This document shows, piece after piece, positions 228 through 33,612 of a DNA stretch of 37,328 bases. Source of the DNA: Lachnospiraceae bacterium. Its GTDB lineage: Bacteria; Bacillota; Clostridia; Lachnospirales; Lachnospiraceae. The stretch covers positions 1 to 37,328 of the forward strand of contig JAILPE010000064.1 of the NCBI GenBank assembly GCA_024699645.1, read 5' to 3'. The notes beneath the pieces were generated by a model. The model worked only from the letters and a program-made list of their open reading frames with translations. It was not told the origin of the DNA and made no database searches. How positions within the stretch are numbered: position 1 is the stretch's first letter; every line of letters begins with the position of its first letter. A program made the translations under genes and the position numbers.

Positions 228-1946
228 TCAGTCGAGTGCCTTTACAAGCTTGTTGAGTGCTTCGAGTGCCTCGTCGGGAAGCTTGTCGTAGCCTTCCTTC
301 TTCTCTGCGAAGCCCTTGACAGCGTCAACTCTGGTCTGCATGGAAGCCTTGAGCTGTGCCTTGTAATCTGCATCGCCAAGGTTGGGAGTGAAGTCTCCGG
401 TCTTGCCTGACCAGTCGTTCATGATCTCGATGTCTTCGAAAGGTCCCCACTGCTCGAACTTGCCTTTTCCTTCAACGATCGTCTCGAGGATGCCGAGTGT
501 GTCTTCCTTCTGTACCTTCTTGCCCATGAAATCACCGGTGTTTACGATGTAGCATGCAACGTTCTTCTCGTCAACGAGCTTGTGGAACTTAACATAATCA
601 TTTGCAAGAGGATAAGTCCTGAAAGGATTTGCGTAAGGCACGATACGGATAGCGTTCATGTCGGTTCCTGCCTTAACACGCTCTGCGGATGATGTCTTGG
701 TAGCAAGAGTAGCGCCCATGACAGCTGCGAGAGCCGAGCCCTTGAGCTTGAGGATCGGAGGGAGTGTAGGGTCCTTCATGATCCAGAAGATAGCGTTTAC
801 AGGGCTGTCGATCTTGTCGACACGGTTGGGTGACCAGAGCTTTGACTTGATCGCACGACCGTTGCCGTTGCGGATATCCTCGGTTACAAGCTGGATCTTG
901 CCGTTCTCGTCCATGGTTGCCGAGCAGTTCTGAACTGTGAGCAGATACTGGTTGTCAGGGCAGCCTGTAGGATAGTCGTTGGTCTTGTCGAAGTATGTGG
1001 GCTCAAGTGCGATACTTGCGCAGGTATCGGAGTTGATGATGAATGCGTCATCATGAAGAACCTTGATACCGCCGAACTTGTCGTACTTGCCGCCGTGCTT
1101 TGCATGTGTGAGAGTGGACTTGCCCGATCCCGAGAGACCGTATACGGAAGCAACGAACTTCTTGCCGCCCTCAAGTGAGTACTCTTTCTGTCCGCCGTGG
1201 CATGAAGCATAACCGTTACGGTTTGCAAGTGCCCACGCCATTGTAAGAGTTCCCTTCTTGTGCTCGCCGAAGTACTTCATACCAAGGATAGCAGCGCAGT
1301 TAGCGTTTGTATCGAAGTAGCAGAGTGTAAGATCATCACTCATGCAACTGTAATCAACATCGGGAGCGGGAACGGGTGCCCACTGGGGATCCGAGAAGAT
1401 GTAGATATCAGGCTCATTACCGTCAGCGATGGGCTTGGAATTCTTGTACATCTTGTTGTATTCATCTGACATGTACTGGAAGTTGAGCATCCAGTTGTAG
1501 AGAAGGTTTTCTTCTCCTTCGGGAATAAGAAGGTGAGCCTTTGCCATGAACTCGGGATCAAGTCCTACGTAGCATGTTGCATGGTACATCTTCTTCCATC
1601 TTGTCTTGTAGATAGCATCCATAACAACCTTGTCGAGCTTCTTCTCATCCACACCGGGCTCGCCCTTGATACGACGTGCTACTGCGTAACGGCCTGTAAC
1701 TGCGCCATCGTTGAAAAGAAGAACCTTTGCATCGCTGTCAAGACCGAACTCTTCGCCTCTGTAGACGGGCATGTCGGTAACGACTGTTCCGGGTGAGTTC
1801 TTTGCAAGATTATAAGCTTCCTTTAATGTGTTAACTTTTACTACGTTGTTTCCGTAGAAAGCACCTTCAATGATCGAACGGGTTGTTGAAAAACCAACTT
1901 TTCCCTTGCCGATCTCGCTAATTTTGTACATAGCTTTTGTTGACAT
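228..1946 (-). CDS. pckA: Phosphoenolpyruvate carboxykinase (ATP-type)
   Basis: This cytosolic enzyme interconverts oxaloacetate plus ATP with phosphoenolpyruvate, CO2 and ADP. In fibre-fermenting anaerobes it usually runs toward oxaloacetate, fixing CO2 and making ATP, although the direction cannot be read from sequence. The protein has 572 residues. The ATP-binding P-loop GLSGSGKST is at about 270-278 and the metal-binding HDD of the kinase-2 motif at 298-300. A downstream stretch ending in NPFRTYP is typical of PEP carboxykinases. It is somewhat longer than the roughly 530-540 residues of the E. coli enzyme and has a modified P-loop (SGSGKS rather than SGTGKT), as in a divergent clostridial clade. 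The start is chosen for an AGGAGG ribosome site 7 bases upstream. It is monocistronic, with its own promoter and terminator. Confidence 0.95.
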   Translation of the reverse strand: MSTKAMYKISEIGKGKVGFSTTRSIIEGAFYGNNVVKVNTLKEAYNLAKNSPGTVVTDMPVYRGEEFGLDSDAKVLLFNDGAVTGRYAVARRIKGEPGVDEKKLDKVVMDAIYKTRWKKMYHATCYVGLDPEFMAKAHLLIPEGEENLLYNWMLNFQYMSDEYNKMYKNSKPIADGNEPDIYIFSDPQWAPVPAPDVDYSCMSDDLTLCYFDTNANCAAILGMKYFGEHKKGTLTMAWALANRNGYASCHGGQKEYSLEGGKKFVASVYGLSGSGKSTLTHAKHGGKYDKFGGIKVLHDDAFIINSDTCASIALEPTYFDKTNDYPTGCPDNQYLLTVQNCSATMDENGKIQLVTEDIRNGNGRAIKSKLWSPNRVDKIDSPVNAIFWIMKDPTLPPILKLKGSALAAVMGATLATKTSSAERVKAGTDMNAIRIVPYANPFRTYPLANDYVKFHKLVDEKNVACYIVNTGDFMGKKVQKEDTLGILETIVEGKGKFEQWGPFEDIEIMNDWSGKTGDFTPNLGDADYKAQLKASMQTRVDAVKGFAEKKEGYDKLPDEALEALNKLVKALD

Positions 1947-4528: not shown

Positions 4529-5926
4529 TTATTTGTTGTTCTTCCGTCTGTACTCGTAAAGCCTTGTCGAAATTATTAAAAGAGCAATCGATAAAACTAT
4601 CACAGATATCCGATTAATGACAATACAAGGCAGCAAATTCAAGTATTCTTCTGTATTCCCAAAATAATTAAACCTGAGGATAGGACTGAACATCGGATAA
4701 TTATTTGAAGAATCACTCAAGGAGAAGAACATTATGGTCATCGAAATAATAACAGATACCACACAGTTATTAGCCACTTCAAAAATAGCCATCGGCAATG
4801 CACAAGCCACTATCATAGTTGGAAATATCATAAAAAACAAATATTTTATAAACACCAAACAACATTCAATCGAATTTCCTTGATTGGTTAAATTTATGTA
4901 TTTTACGCATTCAACAATATAGACACACGCGAAAATAAAAGCATAAACAGATAATGTGCAAGTAAACTCACCAAGTACTATTTTTCTTGATGAAATACTT
5001 TTTGAAAAGACTATTTCATTTTTCCGCTTACCTCCGTTACTAAGGCAAAAAGCAGCTATTATAATCGGTAAAGTACCTGCCAGTATTCCCATATAATCGG
5101 TAAACAATCTGACATAGGCGTCTGTTAATTCGTTGTTTGATTCCATCTTTTGATAAGTTTCAGTTGCGTTCTCTATCGTTCCAGGTTCTTCGAATGAAAC
5201 CCATCCAAGTTGGAAATTAGTATTACCACCCAGCATGGTATCCAATTCACTATATGCCTTTTCACAGTCACGAACCAAATCATCTTCATCTTCGTTGTCG
5301 ATAAGGCGTTCTAATCTTTCTGCAATATTCATCAGTTTTTCGCTTTCCTCATCTGTACAGACGATCTTATACACCAATAACCCCATTTTCTTTTCGTATC
5401 CGGATAGAGCACTGATCTCAATATAATTAATCATTTCTTGAGCCAACTTTTTACCTTTGTCTTTTACTCGTTGAAAATACGGAGAATTGTACATATATAA
5501 ACTATAAGCGCGTTTAAAGTATGACGGCAAAAAAAAGCTCGCTGATTTTGAACTGTTTGTGAAAGCTAAAAGATTACTTTGAAATTGTTCTTCATTAATA
5601 GCGCTAAAATCGATATCATAAACATCTTCATTAACAGAATAATATGGATTCATCGAGACCAATGTGTTATAAAGCAACTCCATTGTGTAAGGAGAATACT
5701 TTCCTCCTTCTTTTCCTATATAATCATAATTTACCGCTTTGCCTGATTCATAATCTTCTTTTAAAAGCGAATATAAAAACTGGGTTTGTGAAAGAGGTCG
5801 CTCTATCATCCTTTTGTCTTCGACTGAAATATTAGAAACTATCATCATAACGATGAGAACAATCGAAAAGAAGACGCAAAACAGCCATCGCGTATTCTTG
5901 AACTTTAAAACAATCGATCCTGTCAT
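4529..5926 (-). CDS. ABC-2 type permease with large extracytoplasmic domain
   Basis: A 465-residue membrane protein. One N-terminal transmembrane segment (about 12-32) is followed by a roughly 240-residue hydrophilic, probably extracytoplasmic region, then about five or six membrane segments in the C-terminal third. The stretch SKSISSRKIVLGEF between the first two of these is typical of ABC-2 permeases (the coupling-helix region). The start follows AAGGAG. The gene begins about 106 bases after the pheA stop without an obvious terminator, so some read-through from pheA is possible. Its stop codon is followed in the same frame by the decayed ATPase relic, which marks a rearrangement point. The intact ATPase at 2387-3259 may now power it. 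The cargo is unknown; peptide or antibiotic export is a common role for such sets. Confidence 0.7.
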   Translation of the reverse strand: MTGSIVLKFKNTRWLFCVFFSIVLIVMMIVSNISVEDKRMIERPLSQTQFLYSLLKEDYESGKAVNYDYIGKEGGKYSPYTMELLYNTLVSMNPYYSVNEDVYDIDFSAINEEQFQSNLLAFTNSSKSASFFLPSYFKRAYSLYMYNSPYFQRVKDKGKKLAQEMINYIEISALSGYEKKMGLLVYKIVCTDEESEKLMNIAERLERLIDNEDEDDLVRDCEKAYSELDTMLGGNTNFQLGWVSFEEPGTIENATETYQKMESNNELTDAYVRLFTDYMGILAGTLPIIIAAFCLSNGGKRKNEIVFSKSISSRKIVLGEFTCTLSVYAFIFACVYIVECVKYINLTNQGNSIECCLVFIKYLFFMIFPTMIVACALPMAIFEVANNCVVSVIISMTIMFFSLSDSSNNYPMFSPILRFNYFGNTEEYLNLLPCIVINRISVIVLSIALLIISTRLYEYRRKNNK

Positions 5927-6032: not shown

Positions 6033-7175
6033 TTATACGATCTCGTTGTAACTTCCCAGGTAGTCGAACTTGTCGCACAGGCTCGCGATCTCGGAAAGCA
6101 TCCTTACGAAATCGGGTGAATAAACGCTCTTTTCGATATCGAAGTAGAACATGAACTCAAAGCTGCGGTCCGGTATCGGTCGGCTCTCAAGTTTGGTAAG
6201 ATTGACTCCGAATGCATAGAAACGGGCAAGCAATTTGCAAAGAGCGCCGGGAGTGTGCGATGTGATCGCCATGATACTTGTTCTGTCTGCTCCGGGATAT
6301 ATCTCAAGATCACGTGAGATGCAGATGAAGCGTGTATAGTTGTTATCGCTGTCCTGAACGTTTTCCTTGAGACACTCAAGACCGTAAAGCTCTGCGCACC
6401 TGCGTGAACATATGGCTGCGATATCCTTGCGGTCCGATTCTGCAACAGCTTTTGCTGCCGCAGCTGTATTTTCATAAACGGATACCTTTACGTTTCCGAG
6501 GCTCTTAATAAACTCTCCGCTCTGGTTGATCGCCTGCTCGTGCGAGATTACTTCTTTGATATCCGAAATCTTTGTTCCCTTCTTTGCCACGAAGCAATGC
6601 TCCACTTTAATGCGAATGGAACGAACGATGCTGAACTTATGCTGCATCATAAGATCATAGACCTGATTAACCGATCCTGCAGTACTGTTTTCTATGGGAA
6701 GAACGCCGTATTTGCAAAGGCCCTTTTCTATAGCCGTGAACACAGCATTGAAGTTCTCGAAGTACATGATCCCGGGAAGATTGAAGAGTCTTTCGCATGC
6801 GATCTGTGAGAAAGCTCCTTCAACGCCCTGACACGCAATCATTGCACGCTCGGGGAATTCCTTCGCCGTCTTTGAAACAGCATTTTCAATCTTCTCGGAA
6901 AGCGCACCGCTTGCCGCAAGTGATCTTGACTGATAAGCCTTGCTCAGATCGAATATTGTTGAATAAAGCTGTGAAGTATAACGCTGAAGGTCTTCTCCGA
7001 CAAGCCCGGATACCTCATAAAGCTTCTCACGCTCTCTTACCGGATCCGAAAGCGGGATTCCTTTCTCTGCTTTGTATTCTCCTATTTCCTTGCATACATC
7101 AAGTCTCTGCTTGAATAATTCCACCAACTGCCTGTCGATCCCGTCAATCTTTTCTCTGTAATTCTTAATGTCCAT
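6033..7175 (-). CDS. pheA: Bifunctional chorismate mutase / prephenate dehydratase
   Basis: The enzyme converts chorismate to prephenate and prephenate to phenylpyruvate, the committed branch to phenylalanine. The 380 residues comprise an AroQ-type chorismate mutase helix bundle (about 1-88), a prephenate dehydratase domain (about 110-285, with IENSTAGSV at 161-169 and the catalytic TRF motif at 281-283) and an ACT regulatory domain (about 298-370) with the Phe-binding ESRP motif at 330-333. Feedback inhibition by phenylalanine is therefore expected. The ATG is preceded by AGGAGG. Expression is probably controlled by the upstream leader peptide and terminator at 7246-7410. The length is close to that of the E. 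coli P-protein (386 residues). Confidence 0.95.
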   Translation of the reverse strand: MDIKNYREKIDGIDRQLVELFKQRLDVCKEIGEYKAEKGIPLSDPVREREKLYEVSGLVGEDLQRYTSQLYSTIFDLSKAYQSRSLAASGALSEKIENAVSKTAKEFPERAMIACQGVEGAFSQIACERLFNLPGIMYFENFNAVFTAIEKGLCKYGVLPIENSTAGSVNQVYDLMMQHKFSIVRSIRIKVEHCFVAKKGTKISDIKEVISHEQAINQSGEFIKSLGNVKVSVYENTAAAAKAVAESDRKDIAAICSRRCAELYGLECLKENVQDSDNNYTRFICISRDLEIYPGADRTSIMAITSHTPGALCKLLARFYAFGVNLTKLESRPIPDRSFEFMFYFDIEKSVYSPDFVRMLSEIASLCDKFDYLGSYNEIV

Positions 7176-7245
7176 ATTATCCTCCTAAATTTCTTTCCTT
7201 CCTGAATTATTTTTAAATCCGGCGGTGCCGGTCTAACATTTTTGA

Positions 7246-7286
7246 TATATAAAAACGGGCTGTACAGCTTTGTACTGTACAGCCCG
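7246..7286 (-). terminator. Attenuator terminator in the pheA leader
   Basis: A perfect 12-bp inverted repeat (7256-7267 with 7275-7286, 7-base loop) is followed on the minus strand by TTTTTATATAT. It lies between the leader peptide gene and pheA and would stop transcription before pheA. The right arm and loop contain UACAGUAC (7279-7272), which can pair instead with GUGCUGUA (7320-7313) at the end of the leader peptide gene. That would be the antiterminator. Confidence 0.85.
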
Positions 7287-7311
7287 GAACATTCATTTAT
7301 CCGCTCTTTTT

Positions 7312-7389
7312 TTACAGCACAAAAGCCTTTAGATTGTTGGTGCTAAAGGTAAAGTAAAAGCTGTAAAAGGCAAAAGAGTTTTTCTTCAT
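7312..7389 (-). CDS. pheL: Phe-rich leader peptide controlling pheA (pheL-like)
   Basis: A 25-codon reading frame whose centre reads FAFYSFYFTF, with six Phe and two Tyr codons in total, followed by a stop codon 25 bases before the attenuator hairpin. The ATG at 7389 is preceded by AAGAAGGAT. An in-frame ATG at 7410 would add seven residues (MKKDITQ) but lacks a good ribosome site. The Phe-Tyr-Ser codons UUUUACAGC (7368-7360) are perfectly complementary to GCUGUAAAA (7318-7310) around the stop codon, so a ribosome stalled for lack of Phe-tRNA would free that segment to form the antiterminator. This is the logic known for E. coli pheL, recognised here from sequence alone. Confidence 0.88.
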   Translation of the reverse strand: MKKNSFAFYSFYFTFSTNNLKAFVL

Positions 7390-7443
7390 TTGTGTGATAT
7401 CCTTCTTCATGTCTGTATTGGGCAATTCCCAACTTAGTTATAG

Positions 7444-7472
7444 AATATACACCTGCTTTCTTTTTGAGTCAA
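7444..7472 (-). promoter_or_regulatory. Sigma-A promoter of the pheL-pheA transcript
   Basis: TTGACT (7467-7472) and TATATT (7444-7449) are spaced by 17 bases on the minus strand. Transcription would begin near 7437, about 27 bases before the first possible leader ATG. Confidence 0.8.
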
Positions 7473-7602
7473 GAAAAAGTTTACTGCGGATCCACAAATT
7501 TCCGCTTGATCACAGCATTTCGCCCTGCTTTGACATTTATGTATTTTCTCTTTAACGTTTATTTTTGTGAACTTTTGTAGTGCGTTTTCACAACCGTTTC
7601 AC

Positions 7603-29641: not shown

Positions 29642-32056
29642 TCATGATCTGAGTTCAACTGCGTACTTATCTTTAAGTGCCCCGAGTATCTTATCTACCT
29701 CAGCGTTTATGACTTCATCGGTAAATTCCATATCTCCCGGAGTAAATACCACGCTGTATGCAAGGCTCTTCTTGCCTGCGGGCAGCTGAGCGCCTTCGTA
29801 AATATCGAAGAGACTTACTAAAGTCACATAAGCGCTTGCTTCCTTAATAACCGATTCAACCGCGCCTGCCGTGATGGCTTTATCCATAACGAGCGCAAGG
29901 TCACGCTTCTCAATCGCGAACTTCGGAAGAGGAGCGAAAACGCGCTTCTTTCCGAATATGCCCTCAAGAGCCTTAATGTCGAGCTGCGCAACGTACATGG
30001 GCACGCGCGCATCAAGCTCGTCGGCTATCTCGTAAAGGACCTGTCCCATAAGACCGATTTCCTTGCCGTCATAGGAAACTGCCGCGCTCCTGCCGGGATG
30101 AAGGAATGTATATTCTTTTGCATCATACGCGAATCTGATATCAAGTGCGTCGGCAACATTTTCTACAAGACCTTTAAGCGAGAAGAAGTCCTCCTCATCG
30201 CCGAAAACACCGATACAGAGCGTTTCTCTCTCATCGGGGTATTCCTTAAGCGGAAGCTCTTTTGCGAAGAACCTGTTTCCGAGCTCGAAAATCCTGCCCG
30301 AAAGAGTTCCCCTCTTCTGGTTTCTTGCCATCGCCGCGATCATCTGAGGAACAAGAGTTGTTCTCATAAGTGAAAGGTCGATGTTTATAGGGTTGATGAG
30401 CTTGATCGCAAATCTCTCGGGTGCATCGGCCGGAAGACGTAAAAGATCAAGGTCGGAAGGCGAGAAGAAGGAGTAATGGATTCCTTCATAAGCGCCGCCT
30501 GCGCAAAGCGCATTCTTAATCTTAAGGCTTGTGCGCTGAGCAAGACTGAGTCCGCCCGGCGTAACCTGTGCGGTGGGCATGAGAGTGGGAGTGATGTGGC
30601 TGTAGCCGTACATTCTGATGATCTCCTCGGCTACGTCCTGATAAGACTCCATGTCCTCTCTGTATGCGGGGATGCTGATTGTGAGGTTGTCCCCATCGAT
30701 TACGGGCTCGAAGCAAAGTCCCGTAAGGATTCTCTTGATATCAGCCTCGGGAACGGTGATTCCGAGCACGCCGCAAACCTTTTTGATGCTGACGGTGAGC
30801 TTGGAGGGCTCAACCGAATTTCCTGTGTTTACATCGAAGTGAGATGACGAAACCTTGCCGCATCCAAGCTCTTCGATAAGGTGCAAGGCGCGTTTCATGG
30901 CCATAACGGTAGCATACTCATCGACGCCCTTTGCGTATCTTGCGCTCGAATCGGAAGCCTGTCCGAGAGCACGTGAGCTCTTACGGATGTTGTCGCGGGC
31001 GAATTTGGCGGACTCGAACATTACGGCCGAGGTCGTATCGAGGATCTCTGAATTGAGACCGCCCATGATTCCCGCAAGCGCAACGGGCTTCTCACCGTCA
31101 CAGATTACAAGGTTGTCGTGTGTAAGAGAAAACTCTTTCTCATCAAGAGTCACTATCTTCTCGCCGTCCGCCGCGCGTCTTACATTGATACGGCCGCCCT
31201 TCAAGTAGCTAAAGTCAAACGCATGCATGGGCTGACCGAGTTCTTTGAGGACATAGTTTGTGATGTCGACAATGTTTGAGATTGCCTGGCAACCGACAAG
31301 CGCAAGCCTGCGTCTCATCCAGGCCGGAGACTCTTTGATCCGGACGTCCGAAACGTAATGAGCACTGTATCTGGGGCAAAGATCGGGAGCCTCAACGGTA
31401 ACATTAAAATCAATCGTCTCACCCGAAGGTGTGTACGAAAGATCGGGTGTTTTTACTTCTTTGCCGAGAACCGCAGCAACTTCTCTTGCGATACCGAAGA
31501 TGCTCTGGCAGTCGGGTCTGTTTGCGGTGATGGAAATATCGAAAATATAATCATCAAGACCGAGGATCGGCTTAACGTCTGCTCCGACAGGTGCATCATC
31601 GGGTAGAACAAGGAGTCCGTTGTAGCCTGCACCCGGGTACATGTCCTCGCTTACGCCGAGCTCGGTTCCCGAGCAGAGCATACCGAACGAATCATAGCCG
31701 CGAAGCTTTCCCTGACCGATGGTCATAACGCCCTCGATTGTCTTGTGGTCCTTAGCCGTTGCATAAACGGTGGCGCCTATAAGCGCTAAGGGGAACTTCT
31801 TGCCGGCAGTCACATTATCGGCGCCGCAGCAGATCTGGAGCTCTTCGGAACCGTTATCAACCTTGCAAAGAGAAAGGTGTGTGCCCTCGATGGGCTCGCA
31901 GGACTTTACAAGTCCGACAACAACCTTGCTTATCGCCTCGCCGACTTCATGCTTTTCCTCTACTTCAAAACCGCATGAGAAGAGCTTTTCTTCAAGCTCA
32001 TCAGCGGTAACATCTATATCTACGTAATCTTTTAACCAACTAAGCGGTACTAACAT
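29642..32056 (-). CDS. pheT: Phenylalanyl-tRNA synthetase beta subunit
   Basis: The beta chain of the alpha2-beta2 enzyme that charges tRNA-Phe; it provides tRNA binding and editing. The 804 residues match the family length. Visible parts are the N-terminal EMAP/OB tRNA-binding domain (about 40-150), the B3/B4 editing domain (about 210-385), the B5 domain (about 405-475), the catalytic-like core, and the C-terminal ferredoxin-fold anticodon-binding domain (about 710-804, with LPKFAIEKRDLALVMD). It starts 21 bases after the pheS stop with an AGGAAGG ribosome site, so the two form one operon under T-box control. Confidence 0.97.
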   Translation of the reverse strand: MLVPLSWLKDYVDIDVTADELEEKLFSCGFEVEEKHEVGEAISKVVVGLVKSCEPIEGTHLSLCKVDNGSEELQICCGADNVTAGKKFPLALIGATVYATAKDHKTIEGVMTIGQGKLRGYDSFGMLCSGTELGVSEDMYPGAGYNGLLVLPDDAPVGADVKPILGLDDYIFDISITANRPDCQSIFGIAREVAAVLGKEVKTPDLSYTPSGETIDFNVTVEAPDLCPRYSAHYVSDVRIKESPAWMRRRLALVGCQAISNIVDITNYVLKELGQPMHAFDFSYLKGGRINVRRAADGEKIVTLDEKEFSLTHDNLVICDGEKPVALAGIMGGLNSEILDTTSAVMFESAKFARDNIRKSSRALGQASDSSARYAKGVDEYATVMAMKRALHLIEELGCGKVSSSHFDVNTGNSVEPSKLTVSIKKVCGVLGITVPEADIKRILTGLCFEPVIDGDNLTISIPAYREDMESYQDVAEEIIRMYGYSHITPTLMPTAQVTPGGLSLAQRTSLKIKNALCAGGAYEGIHYSFFSPSDLDLLRLPADAPERFAIKLINPINIDLSLMRTTLVPQMIAAMARNQKRGTLSGRIFELGNRFFAKELPLKEYPDERETLCIGVFGDEEDFFSLKGLVENVADALDIRFAYDAKEYTFLHPGRSAAVSYDGKEIGLMGQVLYEIADELDARVPMYVAQLDIKALEGIFGKKRVFAPLPKFAIEKRDLALVMDKAITAGAVESVIKEASAYVTLVSLFDIYEGAQLPAGKKSLAYSVVFTPGDMEFTDEVINAEVDKILGALKDKYAVELRS

Positions 32057-32077
32057 ATCAGAAAACCTTCCTTTCCA

Positions 32078-33118
32078 TTAGTCATCAATCTGGGAGAGAA
32101 CTCGCAGATCCGATTCAAAGAGCATCTTTATGTTATTGATGCCGTACTTGAGCATCGCAATTCTTTCGATACCGATACCGAAAGCGAAACCGCTGTACAC
32201 ATCGCTGTCTATACCGCAGCCCTCAAGAACTTTCTTATTGACTACGCCTGCACCGAGAACCTCTATCCAGCCCGTGCCCTTGCAAAGTCTGCAGCCCTTG
32301 CCGCCGCACTCGAAGCAGCTTACGTCAACTTCTACGGAAGGCTCCGTGAACGGGAAGTAAGAAGGACGAAGTCTTGTCCTTGTGCCCGCGCCGAAGATTT
32401 TGGTCACGAACTCGTCAAGCATGCCGTTAAGGTCGCAAAGAGTGATTCCCTTGTCGACAACGAGTCCCTCCATCTGGGTGAACATAGGCGAATGAGTGGC
32501 ATCATCGTCGGAACGGAAAACCTTACCGGGGGAAATGATCTTAATGGGAGGCTTCTTGTTCTCCATTACATGGATCTGGCCCGCAGATGTCTGGGTACGG
32601 AGCAGGAACTCGGGTGAAAGATAAAATGTATCCTGCATATCCCTTGCGGGGTGATCGGCGGGAGTGTTAAGAGCCGTGAAGTTATAATGATCGGTCTCAA
32701 TCTCCGTTCCTTCATAGATTTCAAAGCCCATCGATCCAAAGATATCAACGATCTGATTTCTTACCTGTGTGTTGGGATGAAGGTTGCCCTTCACCTGCTT
32801 CTTGGCGGGAAGCGTAACGTCAATCTTCTCGCTGTCATACCTTGCGCGCATTTCAGCTTCCTTAAGCTTTGCGTCAAGCTCGTCAAAACGCTCGGCAGCC
32901 CAGTTTTTGATCTCGTTTACCGCTTTTCCGTACTCTGCCTTGAGTTCGTTCGGGATTTTGCCCATTTCGCGCATAAGCGTACCGATCTTACCGGCCTTGG
33001 GGTCCATTATCCCCTTCTTGTACTCGTAAACGCTCTTTGAGCTTGCAAGGTCCTTGATGTCAGCAAGAACTTCGTCCTTTATGGCCGAGAGTTTCGCTGT
33101 CAGTTCGTTCATATCCAT
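32078..33118 (-). CDS. pheS: Phenylalanyl-tRNA synthetase alpha subunit
   Basis: The catalytic alpha chain of phenylalanyl-tRNA synthetase. The 346 residues contain an N-terminal coiled coil (about 1-95), class II motif 2 ([20 protein letters not shown]) and motif 3 ([17 protein letters not shown]). [17 protein letters not shown] segment in the core resembles a zinc-like Cys cluster present in many bacterial PheS proteins. The ATG at 33118 follows AAGGAGG. It heads the pheST operon, downstream of a T-box leader. Confidence 0.97.
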
Positions 33119-33228: not shown

Positions 33229-33612
33229 CAAAAAAGCCCCTCAGGAATATTCCTGAAGGGACGAATAATTATCCGCGGTACCACCCTGTTTCGGACGCTG
33301 TACTTTTCTGAGCCGTGAGCGGTCACTGTATATAGATCACGTTCTTCCTGCCGGCACTCTAAAAACACCTCATCCGCACTCTGTCGCGCCGTAATGCTGC
33401 GCCTGCATCCCGCTTAACCATCCGGGACGGATCCCGCTTCCAAGAAAAAACTTTGCCAAATGCGGTTCCTCGATCCGTCTTCTGTTTTCGCGGAAAGGCT
33501 CTGATGCTGAAATTCGTGTCTCTGCTTTCTCCGCCGCGCTCTCAGCCCGTGACGCGACTCTCTGTCGGAGTGTTTCAAAGATACTACTTACACATCTTCA
33601 TCGCCGAAACTA
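33229..33612 (-). ncRNA. T-box leader (tRNA-Phe sensing) of pheST
   Basis: The conserved T-box sequence AGGGTGGTACCGCGG lies at 33287-33273 on the minus strand. It is followed by a terminator with a palindromic stem (33238-33260) and a TTTTTT run (33235-33230). About 320 bases upstream of it fit the Stem I to Stem III region. An AGTA motif near the start and a UUC triplet followed by A in an unpaired-looking stretch (about 33511-33513) are consistent with a Phe specifier. Uncharged tRNA-Phe would pair with the bulge and allow read-through into pheS. Confidence 0.93.

Follow-up and report, generated by a model that had tools for sequence, protein, structure and literature searches.

A probable ribosome-mediated attenuator upstream of pheA in a Lachnospiraceae sub-clade, and aromatic leader peptides in other Clostridia

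The leader of pheA in the DNA analysed here (the window: 37,328 nucleotides of contig JAILPE010000064.1 from a Lachnospiraceae bacterium) is very probably a ribosome-mediated transcription attenuator, as judged from its sequence and from that of its relatives. From the anatomy, the conservation and the computed helix stability of this leader, we infer that it is translated and that the stalling and the footprint of the ribosome would operate a switch responding to phenylalanine, in the following way. When Phe-tRNA is scarce, a ribosome would stall within the 25-codon leader, at Phe codons 11-15, thereby covering segment 1 and leaving segment 2 free; the free segment 2 (GUGCUGUA) would pair with segment 3 (UACAGUAC), no terminator would form and pheA would be transcribed. 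With ample Phe-tRNA, the ribosome would proceed to the stop codon and, since that codon lies within segment 2, it would prevent the 2:3 pairing; the 3:4 terminator would then form and transcription would end 75-80 nt before pheA. If the frame were not translated, the 1:2 hairpin would form and 3:4 would again be left free.

This logic resembles that of E. coli pheL, where pheA is likewise preceded by a Phe-rich peptide frame, mutually exclusive hairpins and a terminator, and the stalling of the ribosome decides the outcome. The window leader shares all these elements and, presumably, the logic itself; it differs from pheL in having its stop codon inside segment 2, and in belonging to a clostridium that also bears T-boxes.

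Anatomy of the pheA leader

The controlled gene and the elements of its leader, all on the minus strand, are as follows.

6033-7175, minus strand: pheA, chorismate mutase-prephenate dehydratase, 380 aa (Pfam PDT 1.1e-59, CM_2 2.3e-19)
7444-7472, minus strand: promoter-like TTGACT-N17-TATATT, 10/12 consensus matches
7400-7407, minus strand: Shine-Dalgarno-like AAGAAGGA of the leader frame; the other five genomes carrying the element have purine-rich equivalents
7312-7389, minus strand: leader peptide frame MKKNSFAFYSFYFTFSTNNLKAFVL plus stop, 25 codons with six Phe codons (ATG at 7389, TAA at 7312)
7360-7368, minus strand: outer arm of segment 1, UUUUACAGC, within the Phe codons; its UACAGC is identical in 6/6 genomes and pairs with segment 2
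7343-7349, minus strand: inner arm of segment 1, CCUUUAG, identical in 6/6
7326-7332, minus strand: CUAAAGG, the partner of the inner arm, identical in 6/6
7310-7320, minus strand: segment 2, GUGCUGUAAAA, overlapping the leader stop codon; its GUGCUGUA is identical in 6/6 and has segment 1 or segment 3 as partner
7272-7279, minus strand: segment 3, UACAGUAC, common to the antiterminator and the terminator; 8/8 pairs kept in 5/5 aligned rows, two positions being G-U
7251-7286, minus strand: intrinsic terminator (segments 3:4) plus T tract, a 13-pair stem (7286-7256) followed by TTTTT, -24.8 kcal/mol

The coordinates of the initial annotation proved exact to the base when checked against the sequence; its 25-codon frame with six Phe codons lies where it had been placed, and its three mutually exclusive pairings are present and were computed in 6/6 genomes. 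The UUUUACAGC stretch (7368-7360) pairs with GCUGUAAAA (7318-7310) to form the outer part of stem 1:2, and GUGCUGUA (7320-7313) pairs with UACAGUAC (7279-7272) to form helix 2:3. Stem 1:2 includes, in addition, the inner helix formed by CCUUUAG (7349-7343) and CUAAAGG (7332-7326), which had been overlooked. Segment 1 is contained within codons 8-16, while segment 2 comprises the stop codon together with the two codons before it. The terminator, described as having 12 bp and a T-tract, is there with its TTTTT, and only the stem length had to be corrected, to 13 pairs by the tool used. The consensus promoter fared less well: the site exists, and TTGAC and a TATA-like -10 occupy shared columns in an alignment of five genomes, but the promoter scan as a whole does not rise above the shuffle level (9 sites found versus 7.8 expected). 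An in-frame ATG further upstream, at 7410, is not conserved.

The traits expected of an attenuator are thus found together: a short amino-acid-rich frame endowed with a start codon and a ribosome site (25 codons, 6 Phe, ATG in 6/6), three exclusive pairings ending in an intrinsic terminator (computed in 6/6 genomes), and a gene of the relevant pathway, as pheA makes the precursor of phenylalanine. Its product is the single prephenate dehydratase found in the window assembly, which is 93% complete. Just downstream of pheA lies a 465-aa frame (4529-5926, minus strand) with no Pfam or NCBIfam match and, in four other members of the genus (L010, L011, L012 and L013), the Clostridiales-1 sRNA (RF01699) is located directly 3' of pheA.

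Conservation within the genus and rival explanations

Taken by itself, the window sequence provides moderate evidence for an attenuator. The leader folds at -46.3 kcal/mol, while its shuffles average -26.6 (z -5.66; 0/200 shuffles as good); six Phe in one short frame occur in 7/2000 leader shuffles, and also in 19 of the 1144 195-nt windows taken across the whole 37-kb sequence; and the 2:3 and 1:2 helices are equalled in 57/2000 and 244/2000 shuffles, respectively. Because the pairings do not go far beyond chance, one sequence would not settle the case, and it is the comparison between genomes that is decisive.

A covariance model (R1) built from five window-type leaders finds the element in 6/24 genomes of the genus, at 146-171 bits, the next best score being 27.5 bits. 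The 18 others are without it in the R1 search (E 0.001), five of them giving matches of 25-28 bits. The element occurs in all five genomes with a PheA 88-100% identical to that of the window, and genomes with a PheA identity of 56% or less show no R1 match of that kind; it is also carried by a sixth genome, G001, at the end of a contig that stops before pheA, so that the gene is cut off behind its leader. The window-type element, as searched for by R1, thus appears in one sub-clade only (6/24 genomes). PheA itself is present in 22/24 genomes of the genus. In the PheA tree, which concerns window 6033-7175 and L035-L061, the window clade adjoins four PheA of other Clostridia (support 0.99) and not most of its own genus, which hints that pheA may have been acquired horizontally in this clade. 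Ahead of the pheA of these four neighbours, no such leader was found.

The six leaders share the same ATG, the same frame length and six Phe codons; five of the Phe positions are constant, and the total remains six even though three genomes have another residue at Phe position 8. The CTAAAGGCTTTTGTGCTGTA stretch is identical in all six, and a 20-nt block that is invariant in five of them is present in the sixth as well. A 53-nt core of the leader is 87-94% identical, versus 38-62% for the fourfold sites of pheA, in 9/10 pairs among the five genomes with pheA; in the tenth pair, formed by the close G008 and G003, the values are 98% for the core and 87% for the fourfold sites. The computed energies in the six genomes range from -14.4 to -18.4 kcal/mol for helix 1:2, from -17.6 to -25.2 for 3:4, and from -13.8 to -17.9 for 2:3 with segment 1 masked, the segment 2:3 duplex amounting to -9.7 to -10.7 kcal/mol. 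The fold z-scores are -5.66, -5.89, -2.67, -4.46 and -4.06 in the five of the six genomes tested. The terminator hairpin is kept in all six genomes; its 3' arm is rewritten, yet still pairing, in G008, G003 and G001, where the terminator (-17.6 kcal/mol) and the antiterminator (-17.3 to -17.9) are about equally stable.

Helix 2:3 of the window clade is paired in 40/40 cells of five aligned rows, with two positions turned G-U, and two-sided compensatory changes occur in 0/8 pairs of these rows, so that some of this conservation may simply be that of the sequence itself. The alignment of relatives that had been proposed as a check supports the initial interpretation, in that the Phe-rich frame and the three stems are kept in 6/24 genomes of the genus, with the qualification that no two-sided compensatory changes were seen in the antiterminator of the window clade.

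Could the leader peptide act through its amino-acid sequence, as a nascent-chain sensor arresting the ribosome by itself or together with free phenylalanine, much as the peptide sequence of TnaC causes arrest for tryptophan? The last six residues (LKAFVL) are indeed identical in 6/6 genomes, and the peptide end NTSVSMG is nearly constant in another genus. However, the conserved end is kept to the base, third positions included, and coincides with segment 2, so that RNA pairing explains its conservation; furthermore, the swapping of Phe 8 in three genomes with a total staying at six is expected if it is the number of codons that matters. We regard such a sensor as very improbable. The same holds for a protein or small molecule that would bind the 1:2 hairpin and choose between terminator and antiterminator, the Phe-rich frame being then incidental. 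The 1:2 region is well conserved, T-rich sequence easily yields Phe codons (see the 19/1144 windows above), and Phe-rich short frames were no commoner in our raw survey than Leu-, Arg- or Ile-rich ones, all of which would suit a ligand-bound hairpin; it would leave without explanation that the ATG, the length and the six Phe codons are kept in 6/6 genomes while the surrounding bases vary, and that leaders of unlike sequence located before pheA or aroF are also Phe/Tyr-rich, and neither the window nor the scanned leaders contain an Rfam family at threshold.

Hardly credible, in our opinion, is a third reading, in which an ordinary terminator would end a short RNA or an upstream transcript, the frame would encode a small protein, and pheA would have its own promoter downstream of the terminator. 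A weak promoter-like site (9/12) does occur at 7235-7206, but such sites are found at the shuffle frequency given above, and the exclusive pairing of segment 2 would be kept in six genomes for no reason. From the comparison of these six leaders, the element appears to be a real and conserved pheA attenuator of the ribosome-stalling kind.

T-boxes in the same genomes and published leaders

Leader-peptide attenuation is textbook knowledge for Proteobacteria, and Firmicutes are usually taken to use T-boxes. Like the proposed attenuator, a T-box reads tRNA charging and controls a terminator; it binds the tRNA directly and needs no translated frame. One of them lies in the window, where it provides the context of the pheA leader.

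33254-33610, minus strand: T-box before pheST (RF00230, E 2.1e-16; its 75.3 bits fall short of the gathering score, 93)
29642-33118, minus strand: pheS and pheT, phenylalanyl-tRNA synthetase (Pfam tRNA-synt_2d 1.2e-98, tRNA_synthFbeta 1.9e-54)

The specifier of this T-box is probably UUC, in GAAUUUCA, according to our reading of the alignment. The remark in the initial annotation that Clostridia usually rely on T-boxes for amino acid genes holds for this organism, whose genome has 6 T-box matches, including the one before pheST; five of the 6 could be placed, before tyrS, metG, trpE, an acyl-CoA-synthetase-like gene and pheST. The protein encoded behind the T-box of L333 (G000:C67) is acyl-CoA-synthetase-like with an extra N-terminal part, scores below the NCBIfam cut-offs and would be an unusual target. 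T-box matches occur in 24/24 genomes of the genus at E 0.001, 22 of these being over the cut-off. No RF00230 was present among the matches at 7150-7560 of the window, at E up to 10, and none reached the gathering score before the pheA of relatives in 40 loci scanned whole (38 of them outside the window clade). In G008 and G022 too, a T-box-pheS pair is located about 26 kb from pheA. With T-boxes present beside the pheA leader, the lineage is not T-box-free and the two systems share the work: it seems that a single cell monitors the charging of tRNA-Phe both through the T-box of pheST and through the leader of pheA.

The kind of mechanism proposed here is already known, and the clostridial pheA case is not a member of the Rfam family Phe_leader (RF01859), for which the window leader gives 18.5 bits (E 1.3) versus a gathering score of 55. 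Naville and Gautheret (2010, PMC2965389) describe histidine leader peptides (hisS*/hisZ) in bacilli, and write that, apart from the ermC leader, they knew of no demonstrated case outside Proteobacteria and Actinobacteria. These bacilli leaders resemble ours in representing regular leader-peptide attenuation in Firmicutes, limited to a lineage and existing beside T-boxes for related genes; they differ in dealing with histidine and synthetase-like paralogues, whereas the window leader deals with phenylalanine and a biosynthetic enzyme in Clostridia. The uORFC-13-1 motif (PMC8632094) comprises a Phe-containing uORF before Acholeplasma aroF, and is similar to our case in combining a Phe-coding uORF and a terminator upstream of an aromatic-pathway gene; it differs in the gene and the lineage, and at least one Phe residue is stated there. 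PMC1262725 reports the synthetase genes of Firmicutes to be mostly regulated by T-boxes, and none by classical attenuation. As to the initial suggestion that a pheA leader peptide may be undescribed for this lineage, no published clostridial case was found in the literature covered, which, as most subscription journals lie outside it, is weak evidence of absence; for Firmicutes, peptide attenuators are in print for his genes (PMC2965389), as is an aroF uORF (PMC8632094).

Aromatic leaders in other genera and families

We surveyed 126 of 130 regions upstream of pheA in the family, leaving out the truncated L188 and three regions with less than 150 nt, as well as 16/146 matched genomes, including that of the window and G022; the thresholds were set with the window leader already known and were later loosened for genus g121, which makes the counts rough. 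Amino-acid-rich short frames in the 126 upstreams numbered 6 for Phe, 18 for Arg, 17 for Leu, 12 for Ile and 8 for Ser, and a terminator was present in 11. A Phe/Tyr-rich frame with both a ribosome site and a terminator was found in two of the 126, both from other genera. When these two elements and at least 4 of one residue were required, Phe gave 2 loci and each of Tyr, Ala, Ile and Ser gave 1, those for Tyr and Ala coinciding with the two Phe loci; the same test on 98 other relatives outside the window clade gave Phe 0, Leu 2 and Ser 1. Phe thus stands out only when a ribosome site is present and a terminator follows, and on small numbers. Since these control numbers are small, the case for the frames of other genera rests mainly on conservation within each genus.

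Altogether, a terminator was found in 31/232 upstreams and 11 rows passed the Phe/Tyr test, namely eight window-clade loci (five genomes, three of them counted twice), L276, L284 and L206, the last being set aside for want of a ribosome site. Also set aside were L187, L200, L221, L230 and L282, which have Phe-rich frames without a following terminator, and a few Phe-rich frames, likewise without terminator, among the 99 loci outside the window clade in the 108 pheA upstreams examined (L079 and L099 had less than 60 nt upstream).

Phe/Tyr-rich leaders (some with Trp) followed by terminators were observed before pheA in three other genera of the family (L298-L304, L293, L308-L319, L321-L325, L326 and L339), and are not recognised by R1. 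In genus g121, such frames occur in 20/28 loci examined (19 flagged under the looser rule, plus L300 found separately), the other eight having none, and terminator-like hairpins follow them. One g121 type (MTSKRNAQLNTASAFAFTFFQVCNFFAGLYWRWQF...) precedes a prephenate dehydratase and another (...NSKLNNGFYYFIQAYFFVSLFAFYF...) a longer pheA; a third form is found in L293. In genus g74, 5/5 loci bear MLQLTNTKFYAYYFYFQGF... or a near variant of it, and genus g290 has ...LNSVFFYFTQACFFAGFFGFYFYYYRN... before pheA in 2/2 genomes. The 2:3 helix (GAUGAAGG/CCUUUAUC) of g121 types a and c, compared across their eight leaders, is paired in 64/64 cells, with one two-sided change (1/8 pairs), a result reached by 125/500 shuffles. 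Rfam scanning of 17 loci matched no leader to a family; the sole match was the Clostridiales-1 RNA (RF01699) of L318, at 1681-1845 (minus strand), right after the pheA leader and ahead of pheA.

Two further models, R2 and R3, both match G143 (g121) and genus g290, and neither matches the window genome or G096 (g74); R1 gave no match in G096, G143 or G312. These models point to at least two leader sequence families, or three if g74 stands apart, among which a distant kinship is still conceivable. In a family-wide draw of 397 genomes, under stricter filters, R1 found only two genomes, both of its own genus. In a class-wide draw of 391 genomes, it found, at 34.4 bits, a leader of another clostridial family (G733, L338:1507-1646, plus strand), which we accept for its frame, its terminator and its gene: a Phe/Tyr-rich MSLFVFAAAYFYFYFIMTRSKSDLCCK and a terminator precede a DAHP synthase gene (aroF), with a 1:2 hairpin at -24.2, a 2:3 alternative at -11.1 and a terminator at -23.9. 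The match in G651 (L337, 38.9 bits, E 5.8e-5) was rejected, as it spans a gene end and a hairpin between convergent genes and has no Phe frame; because this false match outscores the accepted one, an R1 score of 35-40 bits is no proof unless the locus is inspected.

The layout in which segment 2, at the end of the frame, pairs with either the Phe-codon stretch or the terminator recurs in other pheA and aroF leaders. We consider it fairly likely that aromatic-peptide attenuators of shikimate and phenylalanine genes have arisen several times independently in Clostridia, giving at least two (probably three) unrelated sequence families with a segment 2 carrying the stop codon of the leader, and that T-boxes have been kept for the matching synthetase, so that tRNA-Phe charging would be read both directly (T-box, pheST) and via ribosome stalling (leader, pheA). 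The pheA attenuator seems to be one instance of a more widespread use of aromatic leaders among Clostridia. The conserved pheA leader, the leaders of three more genera and the aroF leader of another family suggest that clostridial peptide attenuators are under-counted, since the leaders vary in sequence from lineage to lineage and the scanned ones stay below the threshold of every Rfam model. More of them may be found by searching for short frames that are rich in a given amino acid and pair, at their end, with the terminator that follows. The T-box of pheST and the stalling leader of pheA, 26 kb apart, would offer a natural test of why a cell has two sensors for one tRNA.
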